Shown: one piece after another, positions 20,601 through 38,600 of the stretch
How the letters are laid out: the number at the start of each line of letters is the position of its first letter
Numbering within the stretch: position 1 is the first letter of the stretch
From: Chloroflexi bacterium OLB13
Lineage (GTDB): Bacteria > Chloroflexota > Anaerolineae > Aggregatilineales > Phototrophicaceae
Direction: 5' to 3'
Assembly: GCA_001567485.1 (NCBI GenBank)
Contig: JZRA01000068.1
Coordinates: 62,001 to 126,000 of the forward strand
DNA: 64,000 nt
The notes under the pieces: generated by a model
The model's database searches: none
What the model was told of the DNA's origin: nothing
The model's input: only the letters and a program-made list of their open reading frames with translations
Translations under genes and position numbers: made by a program

Positions 20601-21555
20601 CCGACGATCCACCGGGAGTGATCGGGGTCAGCGGGGCCAGACCGGGCGGACGCAGGCTGCGCGTCGGGATTTTGCTGGTGAAGAACGCGGTCGCTTCCCC
20701 TTTGGCGCCCTCAATCGCCGCCTCGAAAGACAGCGCGAACGCGGCCACCGACGGGAAGCGGTCTTCCGGTTCCTTCGACAGCGCGCGATCCAACACGATA
20801 TTGACCGCAGGTGGCAAGTCCGCGCGGTACGACTGAGCCGGCGTCGGCTGTTCGTGCAGGTGCTTGTGCAGCAGTTCGTACGGCGTGGCAGCTTCAAACG
20901 GAACGCGGCCCGTAATCATCGCGTAAACGAGGACGGCGAGCGCATACTGATCGGCGGCGGGTGTCAGCTCCTTGCCAGCCCACTGTTCCGGCGGCATGTA
21001 CGCGGGCGTGCCCATCGCCATGCCGGTGCCGGTCAGGCCGGACTGTGCGCCCATCAGCTTGGCGATGCCGAAGTCGACAAGGTAGCCATTCCCTTGATTG
21101 TCGAACATCACGTTGCTGGTCTTGATGTCGCGGTGGATCACACCCTGATTGTGCGCGTAGGCGAGGGCGCTGCTCAACTGCGCGACGAGCATCGCGGTCT
21201 CGCCCAGCGACGGCAGGATTTGCTGATTCTTATCATCGCGCTGATTGAGCCGTTGGGCCAGTGTGCCGCCGGTCAGCAGGCGCATAACGAGATAGCTCGT
21301 GCCCTGCTGCGTGCCGTAATCGAAAATGCTGACGATGTGCGGATGTTCCAGCGCGGCGGCGGTCTGTGCCTCGCGGTTGAAGCGCTCGACATAGCCGTGT
21401 TCGTTCGCCAGACTTGACGGCAGAACCTTGACGGCGACTTCTCGCTTCAAACTAGTTTGGAAGCCGCGATACACCGCGCCCATGCCGCCCACTCCGAGCA
21501 GCTCGCGCAGTTCATATTGGCCTAGCATGTGCCCAACAAGGTTCTCGTGGGCCAT
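17683..21555 (-). CDS. Receptor Ser/Thr kinase with TolB-like propeller and SH3-like repeats
   Basis: A 1290-residue one-pass membrane kinase. Residues 14-290 form a PknB-type kinase with all key residues: glycine loop G21-G26, K43, HRD with D143, DFG at D161, then GTPAYMPPEQW. One membrane helix lies near 357-377. Outside follow a Thr/Pro-rich linker (about 395-660), TolB/WD40-like blades (repeated WSPDG and WAPDGSEIAF), an SH3-like region (YKVQLRDRDGWVLRES), a LamG-like region and a last SH3-like domain. ATG at 21555 has GGGGGAA upstream. It follows the sister kinase by 74 bases in the same direction. It could sense wall fragments or polymers and phosphorylate FHA partners at 32994-38694. 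Confidence 0.9.
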   Translation of the reverse strand: MAHENLVGHMLGQYELRELLGVGGMGAVYRGFQTSLKREVAVKVLPSSLANEHGYVERFNREAQTAAALEHPHIVSIFDYGTQQGTSYLVMRLLTGGTLAQRLNQRDDKNQQILPSLGETAMLVAQLSSALAYAHNQGVIHRDIKTSNVMFDNQGNGYLVDFGIAKLMGAQSGLTGTGMAMGTPAYMPPEQWAGKELTPAADQYALAVLVYAMITGRVPFEAATPYELLHKHLHEQPTPAQSYRADLPPAVNIVLDRALSKEPEDRFPSVAAFALSFEAAIEGAKGEATAFFTSKIPTRSLRPPGLAPLTPITPGGSSAQRSGARSSTVGGAGAGHTPPPSQQVGLTQPTPIYKNPITYLVLVVIVLLAAILIVLLGNRGNEQPVVVANVSDTPSSGLTIIETETPTPTATDADVRPTATDTSAIVVPPTVITEGVASTDTPALTDTPQSQSTTATNVALIGTLSTSEGGLVLIATDTPQDTATPTPSAPPGGTSTSEGGLVLIATDTPQNTVVSTSTATDTATRTATNTATPSATATDTATNTATATQTDTPTATTTEVPPTATSTDTATATDTATATATDTATATPTFTATATATNTATATITPSPTATKTPTATSTDTPTETPTVTPSPTVDFAALEIVYASRRAGTMDLYLTDRTGTIVHQLTDAVFSETGPTWAPDGSEIAFVGTYDGVAELWAIQPDGGGLRKIIGQPDVTIPSGPAWSPDGQYIVFSARTDEPTGSEIYLVRADGTGLTRLTYSQGFDYEPKWSPDGRQIAFTTARTGVNSLGLMNFDGSDQEVLTQSAFYPTWLPDGSAILYQGYDAGFDLYTYRLDNGTITKLTDTPTLEEGYPAVAPDGSVAIFESLRGDSTLFDLWQIDLSSGELKQLTFSTDDTGAAWRPDPKVIAVIQPLPTLIAAAPTVTAVPPTITPSPTLAPTQTPTAGPTAASVVYMAIGTRPLLIYNNPRQTATAINVTNARLVVLGVTTDGQWYKVQLRDRDGWVLRESTGYRIEGNVNALPLAAPGTTDTDPLSGDPGFLQIMAQSGFDSEIDAITRRGWEIRPFNEESTLCSVGGEESALLTFGSESWRSYEVVVEFQYRTNQAGQFDIITRMQQDGTGIRHRIDASASNVSQFTLRATGQSLGMGEYPVNIRSGQWGVLRAEVDNEKIRTFFDGLQISEYELFEDEYFSGFVGIEASPGSTICLNNITVRSLYRTASAVTDAVPRGEMIANANIRLFPGAGFSRVGAASAGQEVYVMAEAEGGEWVYIRVDRPRNPFEGWTIASSVRR
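19660..20030. repeat. Low-complexity DNA coding the Thr/Pro/Ala linker of the first kinase
   Basis: Degenerate short repeats (units such as GTCGCGGT and GTATCGGT) encode about 120 residues of T-A-T-D-T type linker. The reverse frames are open by chance because of this composition and give false Val-rich proteins. Confidence 0.85.
20030..20163. repeat. 44-bp direct repeat in the kinase linker
   Basis: 20030-20073 and 20120-20163 are 44-base copies with two mismatches (both C/T), 90 bases apart. They encode two copies of STSEGGLVLIATDTPQ. This looks like a recent in-frame tandem duplication within the extracellular linker. Confidence 0.85.
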
Positions 21556-21629
21556 CGTTCCCCCAGATGTTACCGTGCCCCGCACATTAGTTTAACGCAA
21601 CCGGATTGCCCGGCAAGCGGTCATCCTCG

Positions 21630-24605
21630 CTAGGGCACAACCGGCAGCAGCACCGGTCGGCTCATCGTAATTCGTTCGACAACCCATCCGAGCGTGCCGT
21701 CGCTCAATTCGACCTGCCACCATGTGAACGCATCGGCCACTTCTGGCCCGCCGACAACCTGCACCTGCGTTCCCGATTCGAGCGTAGCGAGAACCTCGCC
21801 AGATACGCGGGCGGTCGCGCGGACGGCGACTGGACGGTCGATGTTTGGGCCGACTACAGCTGGACATCCAACCGTGACCGCAGCGCCGCAGTCACCTTGG
21901 CGTGGTTCACCGAGGTTGAGCAGTAGTTCAAAGCGACCAGTGGTGTTGCCTGCCGCGCCGCGGTAGCGGGTCGTGACTACTCGATATGTGCCATCTTCCG
22001 GCAGCCAGACGCCCGCAAGCTGACTGCGTGTCGCGTCCGAGAGCGAGATGTCGTCGTTCTCGGCGATCTTGCTACCGCTCGGCGCGTACAGCTCAAGGTA
22101 CGGGTCGAGGTTGCCGTCCAGCGCAGTCATCGTGATCGTCACGGTCGTTCCCTGACGCCCCTCGAACCAGTACGCCCGCATGGGGAAGGTCGAGTCGATA
22201 GTGTTGAACTGCGCCACGTCGACTTGCAGTTCGCCTTCGTTCAAGATCGAGACATCATAGGGGGCTGCATCGCCGGCCGTCAGGATCAGCACGTAATTCC
22301 CCGCCGTGTTGCCAGATTCGCCGCGGAACCGTTCAAGCTCAACTCGATACGTGCCTGCATCTTGAATCTGAAGATGCTCGACTACACTGTTGCTGGTTGA
22401 TACGCTGGCATCGTCGTTTTCCGCGATAAGCACGCCAGACGGGTTGATGACTCGCAGGTAGGTATCGAGATTGCCGCTGGTGGCATACACCGCAAGGCTG
22501 ATCTCGTCGCCGCTTTGCGCCTCGAATGCGTAGACTGCGCCGGGCATCTGGTCACCGAGCGTCCCGGTGGCTGGCTCACCCACCACGAGGACTGCAGTCG
22601 GCTGAGCGCTCTCATCCACCAGTGACAGCGTGAACTCGCCGATGGTGTTGCCCCGGGCGCCGAACAAGCGCGCGACAACGACCGTGTATTGGCCGTCGAC
22701 CGGAAGCTCGTAACTGAAGATGCCGGCGTTACGGGTGGTCTGCGCGAGGTCATCATTCTCGACCAGAACCGTGCCGTCCGGGCCGATGAGTGTCAGCACA
22801 AGGTCGAGGTTGGCCGCATCGTCGGTCTTTTCCGCAACAATGCTGACTACTTGGCCGGCCGTGCCATCAAACGGGAAGCGGTATTCTGGCGCGCTGTCCG
22901 TGATCGCATCATTCAGCGCTGAACCGAACGTGAGGCCGGTGCGAATGATCGGCTCTGGCGTTGGCGTGGGGGGCGGGGTGTTGGTCGCCGGCGGCGTCTC
23001 GGTGAGCGTCGCGGTTGGCGTGATCGACGGCGTGTGCGTCTCGGTGGGTTCCGGCGATGGCGTGATGGTGCTGGTCGCCGTCGGCGTATCCGTCGGGGCG
23101 TCGGTGGGTGTCAAGGATGGCGTGAACGTCTCGGTCGCCGTCGCCGTATGCGTTGGCGTCGTGGTGGCCGTAGCGGTCGGCGTCTCCGTTGGCGTCGCGG
23201 TCGGCGTATCGGTTGCGGTCTCGGTCGGCGTTGCCGTGAACTGCGACGCGATCAGCGTTTGCTGCTGGGCCGTGCCGGTAAACGCCGCGGCGACCGGGTC
23301 TTGCCTGCCACCCAGCGCCAGCACACCGACGACCGCCACTGCGACGACGGTGACGAGGATCGCGGCAATCACCGGAATCGGCAGTCCGAAGCTGCGCTTG
23401 GGCTGCTGAGGTGGAACGGCATAACCGCCGGTGTACGCTGCGCTCGGCGGGCCGCCTGCCTGCCCATACGGCGTCGGTGTGGATCCGGTGGGGTAGTACG
23501 GTGGCTGAGTTGGCGGCTGTCCGCCATAGCCACCCTGCGGCGTCGGCTGCTGCCCGTATCCGCCGGGCGCGGTCGGTGGCTGGCCGTAACCCCCGCTTGG
23601 AGGCGGCGCGTATTCGCCCGATGGCGGTGTGCCAGAAGTCGGCCCGGTCATCGGCTGCGGCGCGAACTCCTCGCCGTATGGGGTCGGCGTCATGCCGGAG
23701 GGGCGCGGCTTCTCTGAACGGAGCTTGTACGAGAAGAAGTTGGTCATCTCGCCTTGCATGCCCTCGATCGCACCCTCGAAGGACTGCGCGAACTGTGTGA
23801 CGTTCGGGAAGCGTTGGGCCGGCTCTTTCGCCATCGCACGGCTCAACACGATCATGACGGCGGTCGGGATATCGCCGCGGAGTGTCGTCAGCGGCGTTGG
23901 CTCTTCGTGAAAGTGCTTGTACATGAGCTGTGCGGCGCTGTCGGCCTCGAACGGCAGCCGGCCTGCGATAGTCTGGTAGATCGAGACTGCGAGCGCGTAT
24001 TGATCGGCCGCTGGCGTGAGTTCGCGCCCGGCCCACTGCTCCGGCGGCATGTAGGATGGGCTGCCCATCGCGACACCGGTGCCGGTGAGCGCGGTGGTCG
24101 CGCCCATGAGCTTTGCGATCCCGAAGTCGGTGACGTACGACCGGCCCTGATTGTCGAACATGATGTTGGCCGGTTTGATGTCACGGTGCAGCACGCCCTC
24201 GTTGTGGGCATAGTCAAGCGCGCTGGCGATCTGGTTGAGCATGTCGGAGACTTCGCCCAATGACGCGCGCGCCTGCTTCTGTTCTTCTCGCTGGGCAAGC
24301 CGTGCTGACAGCGAGCCGCCGCGCAGTAGGGCCATCACCAGATAACTGACATCCCCCTGCGTGCCATAGTCGTAAATGCGCACGATGTGCGGATGCTCAA
24401 GGGCGGCCGCTGTACGCGCCTCGCGGATGAAGCGCTCGACGTATCCCGGCTCGCTCGCAAGCGCGCGGGGAAGGACTTTCACAGCGACCTGACGATCAAG
24501 ACCGGTTTGATAGGCGCGGTACACCGATCCCATACCACCGACACCGAGCAGCTCGCGCAACTCGTACTGACCGAACGTTCGCCCGCTCAGATTCTCAAAG
24601 CCCAT
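21630..24605 (-). CDS. Receptor Ser/Thr kinase with three PPC-like domains and SH3-like tail
   Basis: A 991-residue one-pass membrane kinase. The kinase domain (about 14-290) is complete: G21-G26 loop, K43, HRD with D142, DFG at D160, GSPSYMPPEQW. A Pro/Gly/Tyr-rich cytosolic stretch (300-405) leads to a membrane helix near 408-432. Outside lie a Thr/Pro linker, three pre-peptidase C-terminal-like beta domains (about 545-890; repeated phrases LDLVLTLIGPDG, LDTYLRVINPSG, LDPYLELYAPSG each followed by AENDD or VENDD) and an SH3-like end (WWQVELSDGTLGWV). Its kinase domain is very close to that of the gene downstream, so the two arose by duplication. It is divergent from the WXG100 genes. Confidence 0.9.
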   Translation of the reverse strand: MGFENLSGRTFGQYELRELLGVGGMGSVYRAYQTGLDRQVAVKVLPRALASEPGYVERFIREARTAAALEHPHIVRIYDYGTQGDVSYLVMALLRGGSLSARLAQREEQKQARASLGEVSDMLNQIASALDYAHNEGVLHRDIKPANIMFDNQGRSYVTDFGIAKLMGATTALTGTGVAMGSPSYMPPEQWAGRELTPAADQYALAVSIYQTIAGRLPFEADSAAQLMYKHFHEEPTPLTTLRGDIPTAVMIVLSRAMAKEPAQRFPNVTQFAQSFEGAIEGMQGEMTNFFSYKLRSEKPRPSGMTPTPYGEEFAPQPMTGPTSGTPPSGEYAPPPSGGYGQPPTAPGGYGQQPTPQGGYGGQPPTQPPYYPTGSTPTPYGQAGGPPSAAYTGGYAVPPQQPKRSFGLPIPVIAAILVTVVAVAVVGVLALGGRQDPVAAAFTGTAQQQTLIASQFTATPTETATDTPTATPTETPTATATTTPTHTATATETFTPSLTPTDAPTDTPTATSTITPSPEPTETHTPSITPTATLTETPPATNTPPPTPTPEPIIRTGLTFGSALNDAITDSAPEYRFPFDGTAGQVVSIVAEKTDDAANLDLVLTLIGPDGTVLVENDDLAQTTRNAGIFSYELPVDGQYTVVVARLFGARGNTIGEFTLSLVDESAQPTAVLVVGEPATGTLGDQMPGAVYAFEAQSGDEISLAVYATSGNLDTYLRVINPSGVLIAENDDASVSTSNSVVEHLQIQDAGTYRVELERFRGESGNTAGNYVLILTAGDAAPYDVSILNEGELQVDVAQFNTIDSTFPMRAYWFEGRQGTTVTITMTALDGNLDPYLELYAPSGSKIAENDDISLSDATRSQLAGVWLPEDGTYRVVTTRYRGAAGNTTGRFELLLNLGEPRQGDCGAAVTVGCPAVVGPNIDRPVAVRATARVSGEVLATLESGTQVQVVGGPEVADAFTWWQVELSDGTLGWVVERITMSRPVLLPVVP
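22955..23245. repeat. Low-complexity DNA coding the linker of the second kinase
   Basis: Degenerate GGCGT/GTCGGCGT-type units encode the extracellular Thr/Pro linker of the kinase (PTATPTETPTATAT style). There are no palindromic repeats or unique spacers, so it is not a CRISPR array. Confidence 0.8.
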
Positions 24606-25576: not shown

Positions 25577-25873
25577 ATGGATAAGGTTCAGATGAAATAT
25601 GAGGAACTGGAGCAGATCGCTACTCGCCTTGCCGAGTGGTCGAGCCGCACCCAAGCTGCCGGGCAGAAATTCCGCCAACAGTTTCAGGTTCTGCAGGGCG
25701 GTGGCTGGATCGGCCGCGGCTTCGATAAGTTCGCCGACGAGTCTGAGAGCCTGCTCCTGCCCGCCGTTCAGAAGTTGGAAGATGCACTCGAGCAGGTCTC
25801 GAACATCATCCGCCAGTCCGTCGAACGCATGCAGCAGGCCGAAGAAGAAGCGCGCGGGCGCTTCAACTTCTAA
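25577..25873 (+). CDS. WXG100-type protein 1 (ESAT-6-like)
   Basis: 98 residues, all helix with a central turn holding W44-I45-G46 (GGGWIGRG), the WxG hallmark at its normal place and the normal length for the family. WXG100 proteins form four-helix dimers exported by type VII systems. There is no Y-x-x-x-D/E tail; the C-terminus is QAEEEARGRFNF. A good ribosome site (AAGGAGAGG) precedes the ATG. It is the first of four small genes, 31 bases before the next. Likely partner: protein 2, which has the RDxD tail but no Trp. Confidence 0.9.
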   Translation: MDKVQMKYEELEQIATRLAEWSSRTQAAGQKFRQQFQVLQGGGWIGRGFDKFADESESLLLPAVQKLEDALEQVSNIIRQSVERMQQAEEEARGRFNF

Positions 25874-25904
25874 CACCAACCGGAATTAGAGAGGAGAAAC
25901 CACG

Positions 25905-26201
25905 ATGGCCGACAAGATCCAGATGGATTACGACGCCGTACAGCAGATGGCAGAGATCGCCAAGCAGACGGCAGACGAACTGGAAGAAATGGTGGGATCG
26001 ATCAAGGCGATCAGCGATCAACTCGATGGCGGTGTCATGCTTGGCCGTGCGGGCCGCGTGCTGTCCGATGGTCTTGGTGAGCGCCTCGCCCCGGCGGTGT
26101 CGCGCTTGGCTCAGAAGTTCAGCGAAGTCTCGCTCGATCTGGTTGGCGCGCTGACCGACCTGCGCGACTCGGATCAGGCCGCTGGCGGCTTCTTCGGTTA
26201 A
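25905..26201 (+). CDS. WXG100-like protein 2 with degenerate WxG
   Basis: 98 residues, helix-turn-helix like protein 1. In the turn, GGVMLGRAG replaces GGGWIGRG, so the Trp is lost while the Gly stays. Near the C-terminus L86-RDS-D90 aligns with Y87-RDG-D91 of protein 4, the place of the YxxxD export motif in known substrates. GAGGAG precedes the ATG. The pairing with protein 1 is inferred from gene order and from the complementary motifs. Confidence 0.85.
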   Translation: MADKIQMDYDAVQQMAEIAKQTADELEEMVGSIKAISDQLDGGVMLGRAGRVLSDGLGERLAPAVSRLAQKFSEVSLDLVGALTDLRDSDQAAGGFFG

Positions 26202-26225
26202 CACGGGACAGAGGAGGACTACACC

Positions 26226-26555
26226 ATGTTCGGAATTCTGCTTAGCTTCGTTCGCAGTCAGGTCGACAACCTGCTGCAAAATGCCACCAAAGAGGTGGAT
26301 CGCCTGCAAGACGAGGTCCTCAGCGGACTGCGTAATGCGATGAACCCGCTCTCTGGCGGGGGGTGGACCGGCCAAGGCGCCGAGAAGTTCTACGATGAGA
26401 TGGAGAGTGTGGTGTTCCCGGAGATCATGTCGATCATGACCGGCGGCATCAGCTTCGTGGGCGCGTTCCAGAACGCGGCCAACATCATCGAGCAGGCCGA
26501 TGAAGCCATCAGTGGCCTAATCGGCGGCGTTGTCGACGCGTTCGACATCTTCTAA
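26226..26555 (+). CDS. WXG100-type protein 3
   Basis: 109 residues. The helical hairpin has W47-T48-G49 in SGGGWTGQG. It is slightly longer than the others and ends in a glycine-containing hydrophobic tail (SGLIGGVVDAFDIF). It starts 24 bases after protein 2 with GAGGAGG upstream. It repeats the type of protein 1, so the operon appears to carry two WxG/non-WxG pairs. Function as secreted partner or chaperone is by family only. Confidence 0.88.
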   Translation: MFGILLSFVRSQVDNLLQNATKEVDRLQDEVLSGLRNAMNPLSGGGWTGQGAEKFYDEMESVVFPEIMSIMTGGISFVGAFQNAANIIEQADEAISGLIGGVVDAFDIF

Positions 26556-26595
26556 ATCAACCGGACGAGAACAGGCAAAGGACTAGGAGGCCCCC

Positions 26596-26895
26596 ATGGC
26601 AAGCCCAGATGTGAGTATGAACATCCCCGATGTCGAGAGCATGGCCAAGACGTTCGACACCATGGCCGACGTCGCCAAGGCGATCTCGAAGGCGCTGAAG
26701 ATCATCATCACCACCCTGAAGGCGATGGCGTTCATCAGCATGGGCGCAACGACCGCGCTCGAGCAGTTCCTGTCCCGCATTCAGCCGCGCATCGAGAAAC
26801 TCGGTGAGAAGTTCGAGGAACTCAGCGGCGATCTGGACGGCGCGATCCGCAGCTACCGCGACGGTGACAACACCGGGTCGCAGCGCTTCGCCTAA
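26596..26895 (+). CDS. WXG100-like protein 4 with YxxxD tail
   Basis: 99 residues, helical hairpin. No Trp at the turn (MAFISMGATT). The second helix closely matches that of protein 2: KLGEKFEELSGDLDGAI against RLAQKFSEVSLDLVGAL. It ends with Y87-R-D-G-D91, an exact YxxxD motif of the kind that targets type VII substrates. AGGAGG lies before the ATG and a strong terminator follows the stop. It is the best candidate in the operon for carrying the export signal of a heterodimer. Confidence 0.85.
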   Translation: MASPDVSMNIPDVESMAKTFDTMADVAKAISKALKIIITTLKAMAFISMGATTALEQFLSRIQPRIEKLGEKFEELSGDLDGAIRSYRDGDNTGSQRFA

Positions 26896-26915
26896 GCGAC
26901 CACGCGCACGACACG

Positions 26916-26944
26916 AAGAGACCGGCCCTCGAAGCCGGTCTTTT
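26916..26944 (+). terminator. Terminator of the WXG100 operon
   Basis: AGACCGGC (26919-26926) pairs with GCCGGTCT (26934-26941) over a 7-base loop, followed directly by TTT. A-U pairs extend the base. It separates the WXG100 genes from the convergent pseudokinase gene. Confidence 0.85.
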
Positions 26945-26988
26945 CGTTTGCGTATCTCGCTGTGTAGGGGTGAAGTTCGTAGTTCGGG

Positions 26989-28074
26989 CTAACCGAGCAG
27001 CGCCGTCAGCAGCTGAAGCAGCACGATCAGAAGCGTGCCGATAATCGCCGCGGTAATCAACATCCGCCGCGTGATCCGCCGCTTCTTGCGTTCAGGCGGG
27101 GCGTCGCCGTACAGACGCCGGATCTCGTGCGCGAATGTCGGGACATCCTGCTGGCGCATTTCCGGGCGGGCGGCAAGCGCGTTGCCCACGAATACGGACG
27201 TCTCGCGGTAGTTCTTGCCTTCGGGTGAGATGGGCAGGTCACTGCGATGCAGCGCGGCCACCATACCCTCGATCACTTCGCGCCGAACCATGTCCAACCC
27301 GCGCGAACGAGACGGATAGGCAGGGCGTCCTGCCAGCATCTCGTAAAACAACGCGCCCAGACCGTACACATCCGTACTCCGGGTTGGCGGCTGACCCCGA
27401 ACAAGCTCAGGAGCTGTATAGGAGATGCCAGAGATCAGCTCGGCGGCGCTGGCGCTGGTGACCGGATACCCGAAGTCCATCAGGATCGGACGCGGGATGT
27501 CATCCTGATCGTTGCGGACATAGACGGCGGCCGGGCTGATGTTGAGGTGCAGCGTATCGTTCTCGTGCATGAAGGCTACGGCGTCCGCGACCTGCATCAT
27601 GATCCACGCCGCGTGTTGATACCACGGCTGCGGCTGGCTGTGCAGAAGGTCGCTGAGGAAACGGCCGTGCACGTACTCAAACACCATGTAGTACTTGGTC
27701 TCGTTTTGGAAGCCGACCTTGCCGTAAGGCCGTTCCGCTACTGACGCCGTGCGGTACGGCGCGACGAGAACCGGCAGGGCGTAATGCTGCCGCTTGCCGA
27801 CGAGCTTCAGCAGGGTCTTGGCTTCATGGCGGAGCTTATCCTGCGCGACCGGCGTGCTGTGCGCGACTTTCGCCAGCAGGCGATCTTCGCCGCGCTTGGC
27901 CTCGTAGATAGCGGCGGTACGGGTGACGGTCAACCGGCGCAGAATTTCCATGTCGCCGAGCGTGTCACCGGTGTCCAGCACAAGGGGCTTCTCCTCGGCT
28001 AAACAGTTCTGCTCTGTGCACCACAGGTTGCCATCTGGAGAAATGCGCTCACAGAATGTGCAGACATACTTCAT
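26989..28074 (-). CDS. Membrane pseudokinase with N-terminal zinc-binding motif, EssB-like in layout
   Basis: 361 residues. Four Cys (C5, C8, C19, C24) form a probable zinc site. A kinase fold spans about 40-325, and K69, the DFG at D200 and the APE-like APEL are kept. HRDIKPxN has become HLNISPAA, losing the catalytic Asp (N178), Lys and Asn, and no glycine loop is visible, so it should not transfer phosphate. A basic stretch and one membrane helix (338-360) end the protein. AAGGAGGT precedes the ATG at 28074. Firmicute type VII systems use EssB/YukC, a membrane pseudokinase, as a core part; this gene, divergent from the EccC-type gene, may fill that place. Confidence 0.8.
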   Translation of the reverse strand: MKYVCTFCERISPDGNLWCTEQNCLAEEKPLVLDTGDTLGDMEILRRLTVTRTAAIYEAKRGEDRLLAKVAHSTPVAQDKLRHEAKTLLKLVGKRQHYALPVLVAPYRTASVAERPYGKVGFQNETKYYMVFEYVHGRFLSDLLHSQPQPWYQHAAWIMMQVADAVAFMHENDTLHLNISPAAVYVRNDQDDIPRPILMDFGYPVTSASAAELISGISYTAPELVRGQPPTRSTDVYGLGALFYEMLAGRPAYPSRSRGLDMVRREVIEGMVAALHRSDLPISPEGKNYRETSVFVGNALAARPEMRQQDVPTFAHEIRRLYGDAPPERKKRRITRRMLITAAIIGTLLIVLLQLLTALLG

Positions 28075-28094
28075 GGGAACCTCCTTGTAACGCT

Positions 28095-28123
28095 TTGACA
28101 AGGATTCGGAATGGCGACACAAT
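28095..28123 (+). promoter_or_regulatory. Promoter of the EccC-type gene
   Basis: TTGACA (28095-28100), 17-base spacer, CACAAT (28118-28123), in the divergent region. The -35 is consensus and the -10 moderate. The start would fall near 28130, with a leader of about 70 bases. Confidence 0.5.
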
Positions 28124-28134
28124 AGACTCATCTA

Positions 28135-28163
28135 AAGGTACTCATCCACCGCATGCGTGTCAA
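28135..28163 (-). promoter_or_regulatory. Promoter of the pseudokinase gene
   Basis: On the reverse strand TTGACA (28163-28158), 17-base spacer, TACCTT (28140-28135). It faces the EccC promoter with the two -10 boxes only about 12 bases apart, so the two transcripts may compete or be co-regulated. Confidence 0.55.
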
Positions 28164-28200
28164 GCAAGCGTAGAGTTCCGTTGAGCTGAGGGAGACATCA

Positions 28201-31200
28201 ATGGCGACGCAGTCCCAGCCTGTCTTGATCAACCGGCCACCGCGCATCCAGCCCGACCTACCGCAGGCCGAGTTTGAAGTTCCGCCGCCGCCGGAGCTGG
28301 AACTTGGAAACATCACGCTGATTCAGTCGTTTCTCCCGTTAATCACCATTATCGGGTATGTCATCGTTTCCGCAACTGGCAGCGGGCGCAACCTCGCGCT
28401 GATCATCCCGATGGGCTTGTCGGTCGTGGCGTCGTCTGGCCTCGCGTTTTTGGACGTACATCCGCGAGACGCGTGAACAACAGCGCCAGCGGGAGAGCTA
28501 CGAGGCGCGCTTGGCAACGCTTCGCCGTGAGATGGAGGGGTATCACGATCAGCAGCGCACGTTTTACTACTACAACTATCCCAACATGGAACGTGTGCTG
28601 GCGATTGCCGAGAATCAAGAGCGCGGAACGAAGGACAATCGTTCCGGTACGCGCCTTTGGGAGCGCCGCACCACCGACCCCGACTTCGGCGCTGTCCGTC
28701 TTGGCGTCGGCACGCAGCCCTCGACGGTCAAATACACATTCCAAGCCGAGGCCAACAACGAAGATCCGATGATGTACGCGGCGATGAAGCTCGCCGAGGA
28801 CTCGCTGAACGTGACGGACATCCCCGTTGCGATCCCGCTGCGCCCGTACAGCACCGACCCCAACGCGACCGATGGCATCGTCGGCCGTCATTCGATTGGC
28901 GTTACCGGCTCGAATCCGCAAGAGGTGTACGACTTCGTGCGGGCGCTGCTGGTCAACTTCACGGCATTCCATGCGCCGACCGATACACGCCTATATGTGT
29001 TTGGCGACCCGAGCGACGAGACGAATTGGAACTGGGCGCGTTACCTGCCGCACAGCAACTCCGGCAATAAGACCGAGCCGGGCGACCAGTTGTGCTTCAG
29101 CCCGCGCCAGTCCGCGGTCGAATCGTTCTGGGACATGATGATTAAGAGCGATCTCGAGCGTCGCTTGGTTCGCTTGGCTGATGACTCCAGCACCGACGTG
29201 ACCCTGCCGTTCCTGTTGGTCGTGGTTGACCAGCTTTCGATCGAGAGCAACCCGAACAGCATCGCGAAAGGCGCCGACACGCAGGAAGCGGCCTCGCTGA
29301 TCTTCCGGCGCGGCCAAGAACTCGGCGCGACGATCATCTTCCTCGTGCCGGACGCGAAGTACATCCCGAGTCAATGCGAGACGGTGATCGAGGTTGACTC
29401 CGAACCCAACTTGCGCGGCGAGGTCTCCGCCTACGGCCAGAAGCAGGGCACGCTGTTCCGCTACACCGAGGTCGGCGTGAACACTCGCCGTGTCATCGGC
29501 GTGGCCGACACGTTGAAGGCCGAGACCGCGATGAGCACCTTCTCGCTCAAGCTGAGCAACCTGTCGGTGCGGTCGACGTTCGGCACCGCCGGCTTGCCCA
29601 ACGACGTGCGTCTGCTCAACCTGCACGACCACATTATGCCCGAACGGCTCGACGCTTCGGCGGACGGGATATGGGAGAAGTGGCGCAAGAGCCGCGAGGC
29701 CACCGCGGCGGAATGGCTTCGCGTTCCGATTGGCTTCTTGCCGGGACCAAAGCGGCGCGATCTGTTGTTCAGCGCCAACGGCGACGGCGTTCACGGCATG
29801 ATCGCTGGCACGACCGGTTCCGGCAAGTCGGAGCTGTTGATTACGCTGATCCTCGGCATGGCGATGAAGTACGACCCCAGCGTGATCAACTTCGTGCTGG
29901 TCGACTACAAGGGCGGTACCGCGTTCAAGATGTTCGAGCGTTTGCCGCATGTGGTGAACCTCGTCACCAGCTTGCAGGGCAACGCGGGAGCCCGCACGTT
30001 CATCGCGCTGCAATCCGAAATGAAGCGTCGCGCGAAGATGCTGGCCGATCAGGGCGTTCCGCACATCGTGGACTACCGCGAAAAGGGGTATCACCGCACC
30101 GATCTGCCGATGGCGCCGGAGACGAAGGTCAAGCACAAACCGTTCCCGTTCTTGTTTGTCATCATCGACGAGTTCGCGGAAATGGTGAAGGAGATGCCGC
30201 AGTTCAAGGCGGATCTTGACTCCGTCACCCGCCTCGGCCGCGCTTACGGCGTCACGCTCATCCTCGCGACACAGCGCCCGACCGGCGCGGTCACGGATCA
30301 GATGCGCGCCAACATCAAGTTCAAAATCTGCCTGCGCGTAGAAACCGCCGAAGACAGCCGTGAGCTGCTGCGCGCCTCGGACGCGGCCTTCCTGCCTACC
30401 GGCGTGCCGGGCCGCGCGTACCTGATGGTCGGCAACGACAGCCCGCAGCTGATGCAGGTCGCATACGCCAGCTACAACTACATCCCCCCGACCGCCGACT
30501 CGATCGAGGAAGAGAAGCCACCGGTCATCAAGTGGTTCGACCGGCCCAAGAAGAAGGAAAAGAAATCAGCGAGCGCGGCCAGCTTGCGTACCGTGGCCGA
30601 CCGCGTTGTCGAGATTTGCGCCGCGCTGGCGATTGAGAAGCCAGATGTGGTCGAACAGGAGAAGCCGTGGCCTGATCCGCTTCCGGTGCAGCTTCCGCTG
30701 AATGCCGAGTACATCACGTCGGCGATGCAGCGCATGCCGAAGGTCTCCGACATCTTCGCCGATGAGGAGAAAGAGCCTGAGATCGAGGCGGCGGATGAAG
30801 TCGTGGACGATAACCCGATGTTCCCCCTCAGCCGCAACCTGAAGCCGTGGATCGACGAGATCATGCGGCAAGCCAGCGGGCGCTCCAACGGCGTGACCGA
30901 GACCACGACCATGATGGCCGATGGCTCGGAACGCTGGCCGCACGTGGATTGGTCGAGTGATGAGGCGCTCTCAGGACGCATCGGCATGATCGACGATCCG
31001 TACCATGCGCGCCAGCTTCCGCTCGACCTCGACCTGAAGGCGGGCAGCGTGCTGGTTTACGGGGCGTCAGGCAAGGGTAAGACGGGCTTCCTGCGCACAC
31101 TGATCACCAGCCTTGCCGTGCGGCACTCGCCCGATGCGCTGTGGATCTACGCGTTCGACTTCGGCGGCGGCGGCTTGACCCCGATCGAGAACCTGCCACA

Positions 31201-32992
31201 CGTCGGCGCGGTGATCGACAGCGAGGAGAACGAGCGGGTGACGCGCCTGCTTAACCGCTTGAAGCAGTGGGTGCGCGAGCGCGCCGAGTTGTTCGGCGGC
31301 GACAGCCTCAGCGTTTACAACCGCACGCATCCCAACGCGCAACAGCCGGCGGTGCTGGTCGTTCTCGACAACTACGCCGAATTCCGGCAGCGTTACGAGG
31401 ACGCCGGCGTCGAACTGGCGTCGCTTCTGCGCGAGGGCGCCAGCAAGGGTATATTCTTCGCGGTCACAGCCGATCAGCTCTCGACCGTGCCCGGCCGTAT
31501 TGCCGGCTTATTCAACCAGCGCCTGTCGCTCAAGCTCTCCGATCCGAGCGAGTACAGCGGGATCGTCGGGCGTGTGCCAGCGGATCTCGACGACATCCCC
31601 GGCCGGGGGTACATCCCGTTTGAGCGCGCCGTGCTTGAGTGCCACATCGCGAAGCCGCTCAGCATCGACCTGCGCACCGCCGAGGGTGAGCCAGCGGACG
31701 AAAGCGTTCAACTCGCAGCGTTGGCTGAGGCGATGAACACGGCGTGGACGGGGCAGCGCCCACAGCCGGTCGAGACCCTCGAGTCGATTGTCGCGCTGCG
31801 TGACATGACGCCGTTGGCATCCGAGCGCCGGATCGAGATCATGCTGGGCAAGGCGCTCCATGATCTACAGCCGATTGCGCTCAACCTGAAGGAGCAGGGG
31901 CCGCATTTGGTGATTGGCGGCTCACCGCTCAGCGGACGCACCACGACCCTACGCTCGATGGTTCTCAGCCTTGCCGACCGGTATGCTCCCGACCGGCTTG
32001 GCATCATCCTGATCGACGCCCAGAAGCGGATGTTCGAGTTTGCAGAAGGGAAGTCGCTCGCGAACCTGCCGCACGTGCGCGCTGCCATCAGCGAGCAGAA
32101 CCGTGAGATGATCGACCCGCTGATCGAATCCCTGCGCGCGTTGTATACGTCCGAAGGCTCCGCCAACCGGCCAGAGCTGTTCATCTTCATCGACAACTAC
32201 GACGACTTCAGCGATCTGTTCGACCGCAAGGCCAAGCCGTTGACCGACTTGGCGAACCTCGCGCGGCGTTACGGTTCGGACGGCCTGCACTTTGTGATCG
32301 GGATGGGCGCGTCACCCACCGAAGACCTGCTCAAAGTGATCACACGGTCAAAGGTAGGCTTAGCGCTCGACCCGGAGGCGGCAGGCAAGGCTCCGTTCAA
32401 CCTGACGGCGGCGGGTAAGCTGGCGCGCAACACGTATCCCGTTGGCCGCGGCTTCTTGATCGGGTCGGGCCGCTTCACGATCGTGCAGATCAGCACGCCG
32501 TATCCCATCGAGAACGCCGATGAGATTCAGGACTCCACCGAGCTGCAGGCGATGATCAACGTCCAGTTGGGTCAGTACGTCGATGATGTCATGGCGAAGT
32601 GGGATGGAGCGCCGCAGTGGGATTTCCAGATCAAGGCGCCGGAACCCGGTGAATCGAACGGCGCCGCGCCGGAGCGTAAGTCAAGCGGTGGCGGATCGTC
32701 CGCATCGGGTGCAGCCTCCGGCCCGGTATTACCGGCGGAGTATGCGGCGAAGCTGCGCGACGCGCTGAAAGAGATCGCGCCAATCGCCGGGATCGACATG
32801 GCCGTGATTAGCCAGCTCGAAGGGGCCGATCTCCTTCGCATGGCGTCGTCGTTCGAGGACATGGTCGACCTCGTGGCGCTGGCCGCCGAGGCCAAAGTCA
32901 AGCCGGAGGCGCTGCTGCCGGTGTTCATGGGGTACGGCATGACCGAAGAGGACGCGCGCAAGGCGCTGGGCCTGAGCACGGAGAAGGCATAG
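28201..32992 (+). CDS. EccC/EssC-type FtsK-SpoIIIE triple ATPase, frameshifted at a T-run
   Basis: The motor of a type VII-like secretion system. ATG at 28201 has GAGGGAG upstream. Two membrane helices lie at about 38-60 and 65-84. The frame breaks at TTTTT (28447-28451): removing one T joins it seamlessly to the long frame, giving 1596 residues. Module 1 has a full Walker A (K542) and DE (D656-E657). Module 2 keeps Walker A (K960), but the Glu is N1057. Module 3 has Arg in place of the Walker Lys (R1246) and DN (D1331). The family uses module 1 for work and the others to bind substrate. The C-terminal 90 residues are helical and follow a Gly/Ser linker. If the extra T is real, the gene makes only a 91-residue membrane stub. 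Confidence 0.9.
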
Positions 32993-32993
32993 C

Positions 32994-33620
32994 ATGAACG
33001 ACTACATTACGATGATGATCTCGTCGGATCAGTTCGACGACAAACCCAATCACAACGTCGAAGTGCTGGCCGATGTGCCGATCAAGACGATCATCTACGA
33101 AATCCAGAAGGAGTTTCAGCTCAAGGGCGCGTTTGCGCTTTGGACGCGCAACGGCAAGCAGGAACTGGACGCCAACCGGACTCTGCGCGAGCTGAATATC
33201 TCGAAGGGCGCCGAGTTAGAGTTTGGCCGGCGCGCGATGCGTATTCCACCGGGCGCAGAGGAGATCACCGGCACGCAGCGCGGTGTACTCAAGGTTGAGG
33301 GGACGACCCGCTCGTTCATGCTGGCGTGGCAGCCCGCGCTGATCGGCCGCAGCACCGACGCGGCGAGCGCGGCCCAGCTTGCGATCGACCTGCGCGATCT
33401 TGACTCGAACAAGACGGTGTCGCGCCAGCACGCCCGCATCAACGAGGCTGAAGGCGAGTACTTGATCCAGCGCGTCGCGGAGAACAATCAACTCATCGTC
33501 GACAACAAGCCGTTGGGGTATCTGGCTCCGGTTCCGCTGAAGCCCGGAAGCGTGATCAAGCTCGGCAACGTGTCGCTGGTGTTCCAGATCGAAGAGATCG
33601 CGGACGAACTGCTGGTCTGA
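32994..33620 (+). CDS. Ubiquitin-like (YukD/EsaB type) and FHA domain fusion
   Basis: 208 residues. Residues 1-80 have a ubiquitin-like pattern (ITMMISSDQF, then IKTIIYEIQKEF and TLRELNISKGAELEF), as in YukD/EsaB and the N-terminus of EccD. Residues 98-198 form an FHA domain with the phosphothreonine-binding residues G118-R119-S120, S143-R144-Q145-H146 and N164-N165. It lies one base after the EccC-type stop, so it is co-translated. It probably links the secretion ATPase to Thr-phosphorylated partners made by the nearby kinases. No membrane helix, so it is cytosolic. Confidence 0.85.
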   Translation: MNDYITMMISSDQFDDKPNHNVEVLADVPIKTIIYEIQKEFQLKGAFALWTRNGKQELDANRTLRELNISKGAELEFGRRAMRIPPGAEEITGTQRGVLKVEGTTRSFMLAWQPALIGRSTDAASAAQLAIDLRDLDSNKTVSRQHARINEAEGEYLIQRVAENNQLIVDNKPLGYLAPVPLKPGSVIKLGNVSLVFQIEEIADELLV

Positions 33621-33632
33621 TGTCCGGTTCGT

Positions 33633-35605
33633 TCACCCCGAAGGCGACGGCTCAGCGGTTGGCTCAGCCGTCGCTTCGCTTTCTGGCGTACCCGGCGTCG
33701 TGCTGCCGTCAGGTGTTGCGGGCAGCGGCGGCGGAATGATCGTCGGAACGTCGTTGGGATCGCCGAGGAAGCGAACCGCGTCGGACTCGATCAGCCCCGC
33801 CGAAATCCAGCCTTCGCCCCGGCGTGAACGGATCTTGTACCAGTTTTTGTCCGGCGAGACGCCCGTCACGACTACCAGCTCGCCTTTTGGCACCGGCGAA
33901 CGCAGCGGCGCGTCGGGATCGGCGGTGCTGTACACACGAATCCCAACGTCGATCAACACCTCGAACTGCGGCTGAACGTCCTCGATCAGCCACCAGAAGC
34001 GCCGGCCCGCGAGCACATCTGGCGCTAGATAGACCAGCACATAGTGACTGCCCGCGTCCAGCGGATTAGGCTTTGTAATGTTGTCGTAACGGCGCTGGAT
34101 CATGCCCTGATAAATCTCGATTGGGGGCGCGTTCGGGACATCGTAGCTGGTGACCGTCACCAAATCGAGCGCGCTCTCAGGCGTGCCTTGCAGAACCCAA
34201 TAGTCCACGCTGAAGGTTGACGTCGGCGTGGGCGGCAGGGTAGGGCTGGGCGGCGGGGTGTTGGTCGGTGTCGCTGACGGCTCAGGCGTGTCAGTTGCCG
34301 TGGGCAGCGCGGTCGGTGACGCGGTGGGCGTGGCGCTAGAAGTCGCCGTCGCGGTCGCTGTTGGCGTCGCGGTCGCGGTGGGTGATCCCGTTGCGGACGC
34401 GGTGCGCGTCGGTGACGCGGTGCGGGTCGGCGATGCGGTCGGAGTCTTGGTGTTCGTTGCTGTGGCCGTGGGCGTCGCGGTTGCGGTCGCGTGGCGGATG
34501 GACGCCGTGTCGGACGATGAGTCGGCTCGGAGGTGTCGGTCGCCGTCGCCGTATCGGTCGGAGTCGCGGTGCGGGTCGCCGTTCGAGTCGGGACGCTCGT
34601 ATCAGTCGCGGTTGGAGAGGGAGACGGCGTATCTGACGGAAGGACTTCGATGCCACCAGCGGCGTGTGTCTGAGTCTGCGCCGCGGCGATCTCCGTAGTC
34701 AGGGCAGCGGTGGTCGGCACGGGCAGCACGGGGGCCAATGTGTTTGCGCCGCCGCGCCCCGCGAGCACGGCCACCGCGCCAATCGCCACCAGCAGGACGG
34801 CCAGCAGCCCTAACAGCGGCCACAGCCAGCGGCGCTGCGGCTTGACCGTCCGCGTCGAGCCGATAATCACCGTGACGTTGTCGGGCGCGCCGCCCCGCAG
34901 GGTCAAGTCGATGAGCGTCTTGACGGCGCGCTCCGGTGGCTGCTTGGTGACCGTCTCCTGAATGACTTTTTCGCTGATGACATCCCACAGACCATCGCTG
35001 CACAGGATGAACACGTCGCCGGGTTCGACCGTCATCGGCTTATAGATCGTGTCCAACTCGAAGGGATGCCCGATGAAGGCTGTGATGTTCATATTGCGCG
35101 AGGCCGATGCTTGTTCCGGCGTGATCTCGCCGCGTTCCAGCATCGCCGCGTTGACGCTCTGGTCTTTGCTGACCATGGTCATCGTCTCGCCGCGCAGCAG
35201 ATACACGCGCGAGTCGCCGAGATTAAAAACCAGCGCGGTACCGTCTGACCGGATCACGACACCGGCGGCGGTCGTGCCGATATACACCATGCCGAGTGAG
35301 GTGGCGGCTTTGCGCACTTCGGCGTGGGCCGCTTCGAGCGCCTGCTGCACGCGGGCCTGCGTGTCTAGCTCGCTGTTGTTCTCGTCATAGTACGTCTTGA
35401 AGAAGAACTCGACGGCAGTACGGCTCGCGAGATCGCCTTTGCCGACGCCGCCCATGCCGTCACAGACCAGCAGGACAGCGCCGAAACGCGATTCTGGCGA
35501 TCCCGGCTCAGGCAGCAGCCAACGCATACTGTCCTCGTTGCGCTGCCGTTTGCGACCGACATCGGTTCCACCGGTGATCGTGAACGAGATCGCTTTGGGA
35601 TCCAA
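33633..35605 (-). CDS. PP2C Ser/Thr phosphatase with membrane helix and SH3-like tail, frameshifted in linker
   Basis: Residues 1-240 form a PP2C domain with all metal ligands: RNEDS (D25), VCDGMGG (D49), LCSDGLWD and [10 protein letters not shown] membrane helix lies near 258-280, then a Thr/Pro linker. Within 34490-34540 the frame slips: adding one base restores a T-A-T-P linker and leads into the frame ending at 33633, with an SH3-like domain ([19 protein letters not shown]). The repaired protein has about 657 residues; the Arg/Pro-rich end otherwise read is out of frame. It starts 5 bases after the VWA/FHA gene. It should reverse the action of the locus kinases. Confidence 0.85.
34230..34640. 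repeat. Low-complexity linker-coding DNA in the phosphatase gene
   Basis: Short GTCGCGGT/GGTGACGCG-type units encode the Thr/Pro/Ala linker between membrane helix and SH3-like domain. The frameshift of the gene lies inside it, where base-calling or slippage errors are likely. Confidence 0.75.
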
Positions 35606-35610
35606 GACGC

Positions 35611-38600
35611 TTAGCCTCTCCGCGTGAAGGCGATCACGGTGGTGCCGCCCAGTTTGATGACATCTCCTTCGCTCAACGGGACGCGTCCTGTGATATTCGC
35701 GCCATCATTGACGGTGGTTCCAAGCTGGCTGCCCGAGTCGATCACGTACCACGTATTGCGGTCGTAGATCAGTTCGCAGTGCGCGCGCGACAGGTTCTTA
35801 TCGCCGTCGATGTTGAGGTCGTTATTGCGCGGCCCCGATCGCCCGATATAGAACGGTGACTTGCTCAATGTGATGGTGCGCCCGACGAGCGACTCGTCGC
35901 GTGATTCACGGATGATGAGGTATCCGCTGACGACAGGCGCCGCGCCGGTGGCCTCCCCGATGTCGATAGCGGCATTCGTCGCGAACGAATCTGGCCCGCC
36001 CGGCCGAATCGTCGGTTCATCCAAGAAGTTTGGCTTTGTGTCTGCCCCGGCTTGCTTGACTGGCCCGGCCGGTGGAGTCGTCTTGGGTTGATCGCCCGAC
36101 GGCTTGGGCGCTTGCGGCATTTGCGGGATGATGAATGCGCCAGTCTGCGAGGGCAGCGACGCGGAGGTGTTCTGCCGCTTTGAACGCTCGCGGCGGCCGC
36201 TGAGCAACAGCCACACCAATACGCCGACGAGGATCAGCACGATCAGCCCGACGACAGCGCCGAGGATCGGATTCTCGCGGATGCGGTCGACAAGGCCCGG
36301 CGGCGTCGGCGTTGCGGTCGGTTCGGGTTTTGTCCATCGGAATGTGATACTCGCCGTCGCTAATTCGTTGTTTTTGTCGTCAAAGGCGGCCAGTGTCAGC
36401 GTATATTCGCCAGATGGCACCTCGGACATGCTGATCGTCCGGAACGTCTCCTCGCTCGGGATGAAGCTCTGCTCCGTGATGATGTTGCTGCCTGAGCGTT
36501 GTACGAGAACCAGCGTATAGCGGTCGACGGCGTCCGGGTTGCTGCTGACGTATTCGACACGCAGTGACTGCGTGGCGGCATCCTCGACCGGCGGGTTGAG
36601 CGTCAGGTTGACCACGACCGGCGTAACGGTTGGCGTCGGTGTAATGGTCGGCGTCAGCGTTTCAGTCGGGGTCTGGCTGGGCGTCGGCGTCGAGGTGCGC
36701 GGGTCGGTGAACTGCCGCACCTGCCGGTCGACCACGCGGCCGTCGAGGTTGATCGCCTTGATGCTGAACGTGTACTGCTGTTGACCGATCAACTTGCTGC
36801 CGGGCGTGTAGGTCACGACCTCATCAACCGGCACAGAGATGGTATCGACCAGCAGGTTGTTGGAGTCGAGGACGTCGATCTCGATCGTATCGATACGTTC
36901 AGGGTTCTCGTAGGCGATGCGCAGCACGAACTGCTGCGTGTTTGCGTCGAACGTAACGGCGTCGATGGCCGCGCGGATGATGACCTCGGTCGGCGTGGGC
37001 GTGATGGACGGGGTCACTGTGAACGTCGGCGTCGGACTCAGGATCGGGACGTACGTAAATTCCTGCGTACTCTCGTTCAGAACCGAGCCACCGCCATCGA
37101 GCGCCTGAACCCGCACGGTGTAGCGCGCGCCCGGCTTAAGCCCGGCATCGCGCCCGGCGAACAACACCTGATCGCTCAGTGACGGAGGTTCGATACTCCG
37201 GACAAGCGTGTTGTTCTCATCGAAGATGGAGATCCGGATACGGGCGATCTCCGCGATCTCGCGATACAGCAGATTGACCATGACCTCGTCGGTATCACGG
37301 TTATACTGAATGCTGTCGATGTTGGCGCTGCGGGGGCGCGGGGTTGGCGTTATCGTAGGCGACGGGGTGAACGTCGCGGTGCGCGTGAATGTTGCAGTTG
37401 GGCGCGGCACACGCACGGTGCGTTCGGCATCGGCGGCGGTGGTGCCGTCGCGGCGGATGGCGCGCACGGTGATCTCGACATTACCATCCGGCGCGTTGGC
37501 GGCGCTAAACGAGATCGGGCCGCTGATGGGTGCGTTCTGCACGAAGGAGGCGATTGTGCCGCCATCTCGATCAACAGCCTCGACGCGGTATTCTTCGATC
37601 TGGTCTTCGCCTGCCGCGCTCAGCACGAACGTGATCGTATCGGTTACGGGGTCGAACGTCGCGCTGTCGATGTTGACTTCCGGGGCGATCTCCGGCGTTG
37701 GCGTCGCCGGGATGCACTCGAAATTCGTGACAAAGTTGATGCTGTCTGCGAGCGAAGCGCCGCCTACACCGCCCGCCTGAACCAGCAGGGTTGCCGTGTG
37801 CTGTCCGCGCGTGATGCAGACATCACCGCGCGCGACGCGCTGATTGCGCAGCGATGCGACGATTCGCTCGAACATCGCGGGAAGGGCGTCCAGATTGCCG
37901 AACACCGCGAGGCCGTTAGATGAGTCGGTGATGCGCTGAAGCTCGCCTTGAGCGATGGGAATCCCACCGGTGAGGCCAATGGCATAGACGTTGACCGGGT
38001 TGGCGACGTCGGACGCGCGTGCGACGACCTCGTCCAGCGTGCGCGAACTGCACGGGTCGAGTTCACCGCCGGCGATCAATTCGTCACGACCGTCCGTAAA
38101 CAACATGACCGAGCGCCGGTTCGGCAGCGGGATTTCAGTCGCTTTTTGCATGGCAGCGAACGTGGCGTCGAAGAGGCAGGTACCGGCATTGGGGTCGTTA
38201 GGGTTGGCAGGTGCGTACTGCGCAATCGTGTTGATCACGCCGTTCTTGTCTTGCGAGAAGTCGGTCGCCGTCGAGATTTGACGGTTGAAGGTCATTACCG
38301 AGAAACGGGTGCCATCCGGCAGGTTCTGGACGGCGGTAATCGCGGCTTGGCGCATCGTATCTGCCGCCCCGCCCATCGACCCTGACGCGTCGAGCACGAT
38401 CACGACGAACAGCGGCGAGTTGGTTTCTTCAACGCGCGCTTCGGTTCGTGTGCCGTCCTCAAGCTGGATGATCGCCTGCCGCGCGCTGCCCGGATCGATC
38501 GCGTCACCGTTGGCATCGTTGACGGTAAAGAATAGGCCGAGCGATGTCGCTTCGTTTGGCCCGTCGGTGACCTCGGCGAACGACACGTTGATTGCGACGG

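Follow-up and report, generated by a model that had tools for sequence, protein, structure and literature searches.

Type VII secretion systems (T7SSs) have been described almost wholly from Actinomycetota and Bacillota, and their export signal has two parts, a WxG motif on one partner and a YxxxD/E motif on the other. The subtypes T7SSc to T7SSj, which Garrett, Higginson and Palmer (2024, PMC11217815) described solely from Bacillota and Actinomycetota, have EccC/EssC, WXG100 proteins and, usually, a protein resembling YukD; these are combined with kinases, PPM phosphatases, FHA proteins and VWA or Ig-like envelope proteins that replace the ESX (T7SSa) and Ess (T7SSb) parts; among their components are the kinase TscD, the phosphatase TscF, the VWA protein TscE, the Ig-like envelope protein TsdI, the FHA protein TseJ and the tail-anchored, kinase-like TshM. 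For Chloroflexi, two papers of 2012 (PMC3482391, in a table) and 2014 (PMC3935865) mention type VII or WXG100 genes in passing. In a 64,000-nucleotide stretch of the 4.22-Mb genome of Chloroflexi bacterium OLB13 (contig C68, positions 62001-126000; “the window”), we have identified a locus which probably encodes a T7SS of an undescribed subtype, in which two WXG pairs and WXG-domain effectors would be exported via the membrane ATPase EccC. In the open-licence literature searched, neither this Chloroflexota system nor the long form of its EccC presented below was found described.

All the genes that a preliminary description of this DNA had named are present at 25577-33620 of the window, where it had placed them. 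Profile matches and motifs bear out four WXG100-type genes, an EccC-type triple ATPase, a protein joining a ubiquitin-like (Ubl) and an FHA domain, and a membrane pseudokinase within 8 kb (Table 1), with the split of EccC and the start of the pseudokinase corrected; the locus itself extends further, from about 17683 to 38694. The ordered set WXGa-WXGb-WXGc-WXGd, pseudokinase, EccC, Ubl-FHA recurs beside EccC across Chloroflexota, cultured Herpetosiphon included, and the locus is therefore far above chance. This was seen in a survey of 301 Chloroflexota genomes and in a wider scan of one genome per species (84,980 species), from which the best 80 loci were taken in; the records of these 80 name Chloroflexota in all but two titles (Anaerolineae, Ardenticatenia, Thermoflexus, Chloroflexales, Herpetosiphon). 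Gene calls and profiles were made for this analysis, and each count was restricted to the loci whose sequence reaches far enough. The pseudokinase gene lies close to EccC at 67/73 loci and the Ubl-FHA gene at 63/66, at least three WXG genes occur at 42/57, and the whole seven-part core is found in 33 of the 51 loci with room for it. The pseudokinase gene often lies on the strand opposite to EccC, as in the window, and in other loci in the same direction. Dozens of Chloroflexota bacteria share this version of type VII secretion, the nearest relatives of the window’s genome being L072, from Anaerolineae, and L082, from Phototrophicales.

The ATPases of these loci form a group of their own. A tree of 108 EccC/EssC sequences, covering the N-terminus to the ATPase domain D1 and obtained by a quick search, sampled 79 members of the system, three ESX, two Ess and two other plasmid sequences, and 22 other Chloroflexota EccCs. 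The 79 system EccCs fall in one clade (SH-like approximate likelihood ratio test, SH-aLRT, 100; stem 1.29), apart from all the ESX, Ess, plasmid and other Chloroflexota EccCs sampled. The Bacillota T7SSc to T7SSj ATPases are absent from this tree; plasmid searches for reference ATPases of these subtypes gave mainly T7SSa and T7SSb types and none of T7SSc to T7SSj. With a conserved seven-gene set, an EccC clade of its own and standard ESX/Ess parts not found genome-wide, the suggestion that this is a distinct type VII architecture in Chloroflexota has held up.

T7SSc to T7SSj are the closest published systems, with the themes shared and the part set not. The Chloroflexota set, compared by domain content and not by sequence, corresponds to none of their component sets: it has four WXG100 genes in two unlike pairs, a Ubl-FHA fusion, a tail-anchored pseudokinase that is catalytically dead, a transmembrane (TM) protein with both VWA and FHA, and a seven-domain EccC, which is reported in none of the subtypes (PMC11217815). 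It could be argued that the system is an outlying member of one of them, as several also join EccC to kinase, PPM phosphatase, FHA and VWA proteins (PMC11217815). Yet no published subtype has four WXG100 genes, a Ubl-FHA fusion, a pseudokinase without any of the catalytic-loop residues or a VWA-FHA protein across the membrane, they were described outside Chloroflexota, and the T7SSc-like Chloroflexota loci L046, L047, L054 and L062 lie in a different part of the EccC tree; we regard such membership as unlikely, albeit the most serious of the competing explanations.

The standard parts were searched for with profiles in the window’s genome and in ten other genomes carrying the cassette (11 in total, including a three-contig Herpetosiphon), and the positive controls, Nocardia and Mycolicibacterium plasmids, a Limosilactobacillus plasmid and B. 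subtilis, gave matches. In the 11 genomes, EccB and EccD had no match above cut-off, nor had EccE (two sub-cut-off fragments lie inside giant Herpetosiphon open reading frames, ORFs), and mycosin had none above cut-off, its many sub-cut-off matches being generic subtilases as in the controls Thermus and Methanosarcina. EssA, EssB and EsaA had no match in the same genomes, while the B. subtilis control matches all three and the plasmid control EsaA. Neither the T7SSa set (EccB, EccD, EccE and mycosin) nor the T7SSb set (EssA, EssB and EsaA) is therefore found in these genomes. That the missing partners of a standard ESX or Ess system lie elsewhere could be entertained, since the window is part of a genome 95.5% complete in 148 contigs; however, these searches refute it at profile sensitivity, and we give this explanation hardly any credence. 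Moreover, the case that would have turned the locus into a decayed copy, a complete standard set beside another EccC of the same genome, was not found, and the second EccC locus of this genome, on contig C36, is itself non-standard and of another kind. Such an expectation presupposes that no type VII system can do without either the ESX or the Ess partners, a premise which is outdated in any case, as T7SSc to T7SSj lack both (PMC11217815).

Set against the two classic systems, the likeness is partial in each direction. With T7SSa the Chloroflexota system shares an EccC without N-terminal FHA domains, unlike WXG pairs, a YxxxD/E tail signal and a possible EspG-like chaperone; in contrast to T7SSa, it has no EccB, EccD, EccE or mycosin, and its Ubl domain is soluble and FHA-linked rather than fused to a polytopic protein. 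With T7SSb (EssB/YukC, YukD, EssC) it shares a pseudokinase with one TM helix, a YukD-like fold and an EssC-like motor, but EssA, EsaA and EssB are lacking, the pseudokinase has no EssB profile similarity, and FHA domains sit on other proteins than EccC. What the type VII systems compared here have in common would then be EccC, WXG pairs and a Ubl domain, the rest being lineage-specific.

Four WXG100-family matches, one of them (WXGa) above the curated TIGR03930 cut-off, are encoded with the ATPase, as is typical of type VII loci. A literal WxG is found in WXGa and WXGc only among the window’s four proteins, and this alternation is kept in the 38 ordered quartets (Table 1). In these quartets a [YF]xxx[DE] tail ends 32/38 of the d proteins, versus a mean of 13.8 and a maximum of 22 after shuffling. 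The WXGc-WXGd pair carries, as judged from its motifs, the classic two-part export signal, split over the partners. The four small proteins, predicted helical hairpins, would assemble into two pairs, a-b and c-d, each with a WxG member and a non-WxG member, and the pairs may serve as signal-bearing substrates or carriers.

Larger proteins may travel by the same route. The relatives often encode proteins of 280-620 residues with an N-terminal WXG100 domain (matched in 26/26 tested), a Gly-rich linker and a variable C-terminus, which are likely effectors; in Herpetosiphon aurantiacus DSM 785 a WXG-domain protein is encoded at L132 19888-20874. Directly after such a gene, in 23/32 cases, lies a gene for a protein of ~265 residues (e.g. 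L132 20896-21693 and 31 related genes). This family gave no match to PDB profiles, while 3/22 members match the EspG family PF14011 (best 7.7e-5), and it is probably an EspG-like chaperone. WXG-domain candidate substrate genes are absent from the window. On contig C65 of the same genome (L162 1084-2883) we observed a WXG-domain protein with a Gly-rich linker and an unknown C-terminal domain, its start lying inside the ORF; it may be a substrate whose gene lies apart from the secretion locus. The kinase, phosphatase, VWA and FHA content of the locus might suggest signalling, so that an EccC-like motor and WXG proteins would act in the envelope in this or some other task than secretion. This we hold to be highly improbable, as the hallmarks of type VII secretion are present: an EccC accompanied by pairs of WXG100 proteins, a domain resembling YukD, candidate effectors that carry a WXG domain and what is probably a chaperone of the EspG kind.

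The EccC of the window matches the EssC, EccCa and EccCb models across its three ATPase domains D1-D2-D3, NCBIfam EssC being the best profile. Two N-terminal TM helices precede these domains, as expected of a membrane-bound FtsK/SpoIIIE-type EccC/EssC ATPase; the protein starts with this TM region in the window and in the relatives, and the N-terminal FHA domains of T7SSb EssC are absent. Throughout the system D1 has an intact Walker A and a catalytic Glu, while D2 and D3 are without the Glu in nearly all members. In the window the gene is split by a one-base frame break in a T run near 28448-28452. The ORF at 28201-28476, considered as a separate small membrane protein, was discarded as such: it is the EccC N-terminus, fused in ten close relatives and in L072. 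The PP2C phosphatase gene is likewise broken, in its low-complexity stalk (34157-34600), into ORFs 34157-35605 and 33633-34208, both spanned by a single 672-residue ORF in L072. The simplest reading of these breaks is sequencing or assembly indels, all the more since the C36 EccC of the same assembly is broken too, at two places; real mutation is the alternative. The two broken genes could also be taken to mean that OLB13 holds a decayed, non-functional copy. We consider this very unlikely, as all other core genes are intact and conserved, the relatives are intact, one break lies in a homopolymer and the other in a low-complexity stalk, and the C36 EccC of the same assembly has breaks as well.

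About half of the relatives encode a long EccC of ~2,900 residues (e.g. L132 9656-18532 and 30 other loci). The complete system EccCs comprise the sharply distinct forms D1-D2-D3 (n = 34), (D1-D2)x3-D3 (n = 31) and (D1-D2)x2-D3 (n = 1), the last a five-domain intermediate (L081 1437-8033). In the long form each D1 copy retains both Walker motifs in 32/32, whereas the Glu is missing from nearly every D2 copy and D3. On the EccC tree the long EccC requires three changes, and in the D1 and D2 trees the copies cluster by lineage, not by position. Approximately unbiased (AU) tests, with second and third copies constrained to group together, reject a single origin of the seven-domain EccC (D1 p 3e-62; D2 copies p 1e-8), save if gene conversion homogenised the copies in each lineage. 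We lean, with little better than even confidence, towards a lengthening of EccC by tandem triplication of D1-D2, which left each subunit with three intact ATPase sites and took place separately in three lineages of Chloroflexota that converged on the seven-domain form, as three independent triplications directly explain the grouping of copies by lineage. One origin followed by gene conversion within each lineage, plus losses, would be the alternative. If the independent triplications are true, this would be a stacked multi-motor secretion ATPase in which EccC is the sole conserved multi-pass part of the membrane base, a new mechanical design for type VII export. The seven-domain EccC may thus serve as a natural experiment on how many motor domains a channel can use, and why.

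The pseudokinase has the kinase fold with its catalytic residues lost. The HRD Asp and the catalytic-loop Lys and Asn are each retained in 0/73 family members, while the ATP-binding VAIK Lys and the DFG Asp are kept in 73/73; an N-terminal CxxC...C...C motif is present in 66/73 and a C-terminal TM helix in 70/73. The AlphaFold2 (AF2) model has a PknB-like fold at a predicted local distance difference test score (pLDDT) of 91. Translation probably starts at 28074, 57 bases inside the ORF, where the MKxxC of the family begins. Like TshM of T7SSh and TscD of T7SSc, it is a membrane-anchored kinase-fold protein encoded with the ATPase, and by description it shares with TshM the lone TM helix at the C-terminus and the lack of an extracellular domain; TscD, in contrast, keeps the kinase active site. 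The pseudokinase had been put forward as a possible EssB analogue, and as an analogue it can stand; a sequence relation to EssB went undetected. PF10140 (the EssB/YukC family) had no match genome-wide, and the profile comparison with EssB gave a probability of 0.13%, a weak test as two EssB sequences were used; homology to EssB was rejected on this lack of signal.

In the Ubl-FHA protein the two halves are recognized by different means. The YukD profile matches 23/34 family members (best 3.8e-7), and the FHA residues GR and SRxHA are conserved in the family. A fold search with the AF2 model (pLDDT 91) returned mainly FHA chains, the FHA half matching phosphothreonine-binding FHA domains (Z 14.8), and the Ubl half rests on the YukD profiles and the predicted strand order.

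These parts allow a mechanism to be proposed. EccC, with two TM helices per subunit, would be membrane channel and motor at once and, carrying over what is known of ESX, would work as a hexamer; D1 would be the working ATPase, with D2 and D3 probably regulatory or substrate-binding. The tail-anchored pseudokinase would stand in for EssB, as a scaffold bound to EccC, and Ubl-FHA for YukD/EsaB, as an EccC-bound regulator. The two membrane kinases, the PP2C phosphatase and the FHA domains on two proteins (the Ubl protein and the VWA-Ig-FHA envelope protein) suggest that assembly may be switched by threonine phosphorylation. Such a phosphorylation switch has been proposed for other type VII subtypes (PMC11217815).

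Several of these parts flank the core, and the words “minimal” and “reduced”, first applied to the locus, had to be given up: the seven genes are flanked by those of a PP2C phosphatase, of a VWA-Ig-TM-FHA protein and of two membrane-bound Ser/Thr kinases whose extracellular domains are sensor-like (Table 1). The phosphatase and VWA-FHA genes have the same position in L072, which has a related kinase upstream.

Table 1. Features of the type VII locus in the window (E values from profile matches; WxG counts among 38 orthologues)
Feature	Coordinates	Strand	Evidence
WXGa: WXG100 protein with WxG motif, 98 aa	25577..25873	+	TIGR03930 E 2.6e-15; WxG in 36/38
WXGb: WXG100-family partner without WxG, 98 aa	25905..26201	+	TIGR03930 E 9.6e-9; WxG in 1/38
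WXGc: WXG100 protein with WxG motif, 109 aa	26226..26555	+	TIGR03930 E 1.1e-6; WxG in 37/38
WXGd: WXG100-family partner without WxG, C-terminal YxxxD signal-like motif (YRDGD), 99 aa	26596..26895	+	TIGR03930 E 1.8e-5; WxG in 0/38
PsK (P0005): zinc-ribbon-like N-terminus, pseudokinase domain, C-terminal TM helix (tail anchor)	26989..28074	-	Pkinase E 4e-20; ORF reaches 28131
EccC N-terminal part, two TM helices	28201..28476	+	Fused to EccC in ten/ten close relatives and L072; weak EssC N-terminal match
EccC cytoplasmic part (P0007): D1 with intact Walker A/B; D2 and D3 degenerate	28448..32992	+	TIGR03928 2e-182, TIGR03924 1e-124, TIGR03925 3e-104; domain and motif scans; frame from 28448
Ubl-FHA (P0008): YukD-like ubiquitin fold and phosphothreonine-type FHA	32994..33620	+	FHA E 7e-11; YukD in family members
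PP2C-type phosphatase, TM, low-complexity stalk, SH3 tail	33633..35605	-	PP2C_2 E 1e-13, SH3_3 4e-7
VWA-FHA: N-terminal hydrophobic signal, extracellular VWA and Ig-like repeats, TM 813-831, cytoplasmic FHA	35611..38694	-	VWA_2 3e-11, FHA 4e-14
Ser/Thr kinase: intact HRDIKPAN and DFG, TM, extracellular PPC and SH3 (accessory)	21630..24605	-	Pkinase 6e-46; related kinase in same place in L072
Ser/Thr kinase: intact HRDIKTSN and DFG, TM, extracellular PD40 beta-propeller and SH3 (accessory, membership less sure)	17683..21585	-	Pkinase 1e-45, PD40 9e-26

Some points weigh against a secretion system of a new subtype. Secretion is deduced here from genes; the probable chaperone assignment draws on the 3/22 members matching PF14011; with EccC and PP2C genes both frame-broken, the window’s copy could be broken; and the separateness from T7SSc to T7SSj is read from domain content, their ATPases being absent from the tree. 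In addition, near the 26 cassettes with enough flank, a VWA protein was found at only 16, a kinase at 10 and PP2C at 5. Because of these counts the VWA protein is regarded as a frequent part, and kinase and PP2C as accessory or located elsewhere.

If the new subtype is accepted, a third phylum gains its own conserved type VII subtype with a defined part list. The system is present in cultured strains (Herpetosiphon species and Candidatus Oscillochloris fontis) and is therefore testable, and control by phosphorylation can be tested as well, given that pseudokinase, FHA, kinase and phosphatase parts recur.

Other type VII loci were observed in Chloroflexota. Those named above as T7SSc-like (L046, L047, L054 and L062) carry VWA, Ser/Thr kinase-SH3, PP2C-PASTA and TM-FHA genes; their EccCs are a separate clade, which points to several kinds of type VII system within the phylum. 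At the second locus of the OLB13 genome, on contig C36 (L056 1-8183), the EccC gene with the frame breaks lies at the end of the contig and is accompanied by two WXG-like genes and by those of a kinase with a tail anchor and of a VWA-FHA protein; as this locus differs from that of the window, the VWA-FHA gene beside it makes the link between VWA-FHA and type VII secretion in Chloroflexota firmer. Adjoining the C36 locus, at L056 9213-13313, are phage-tail-like contractile injection genes (tail sheath, Pvc16 and an AAA ATPase).

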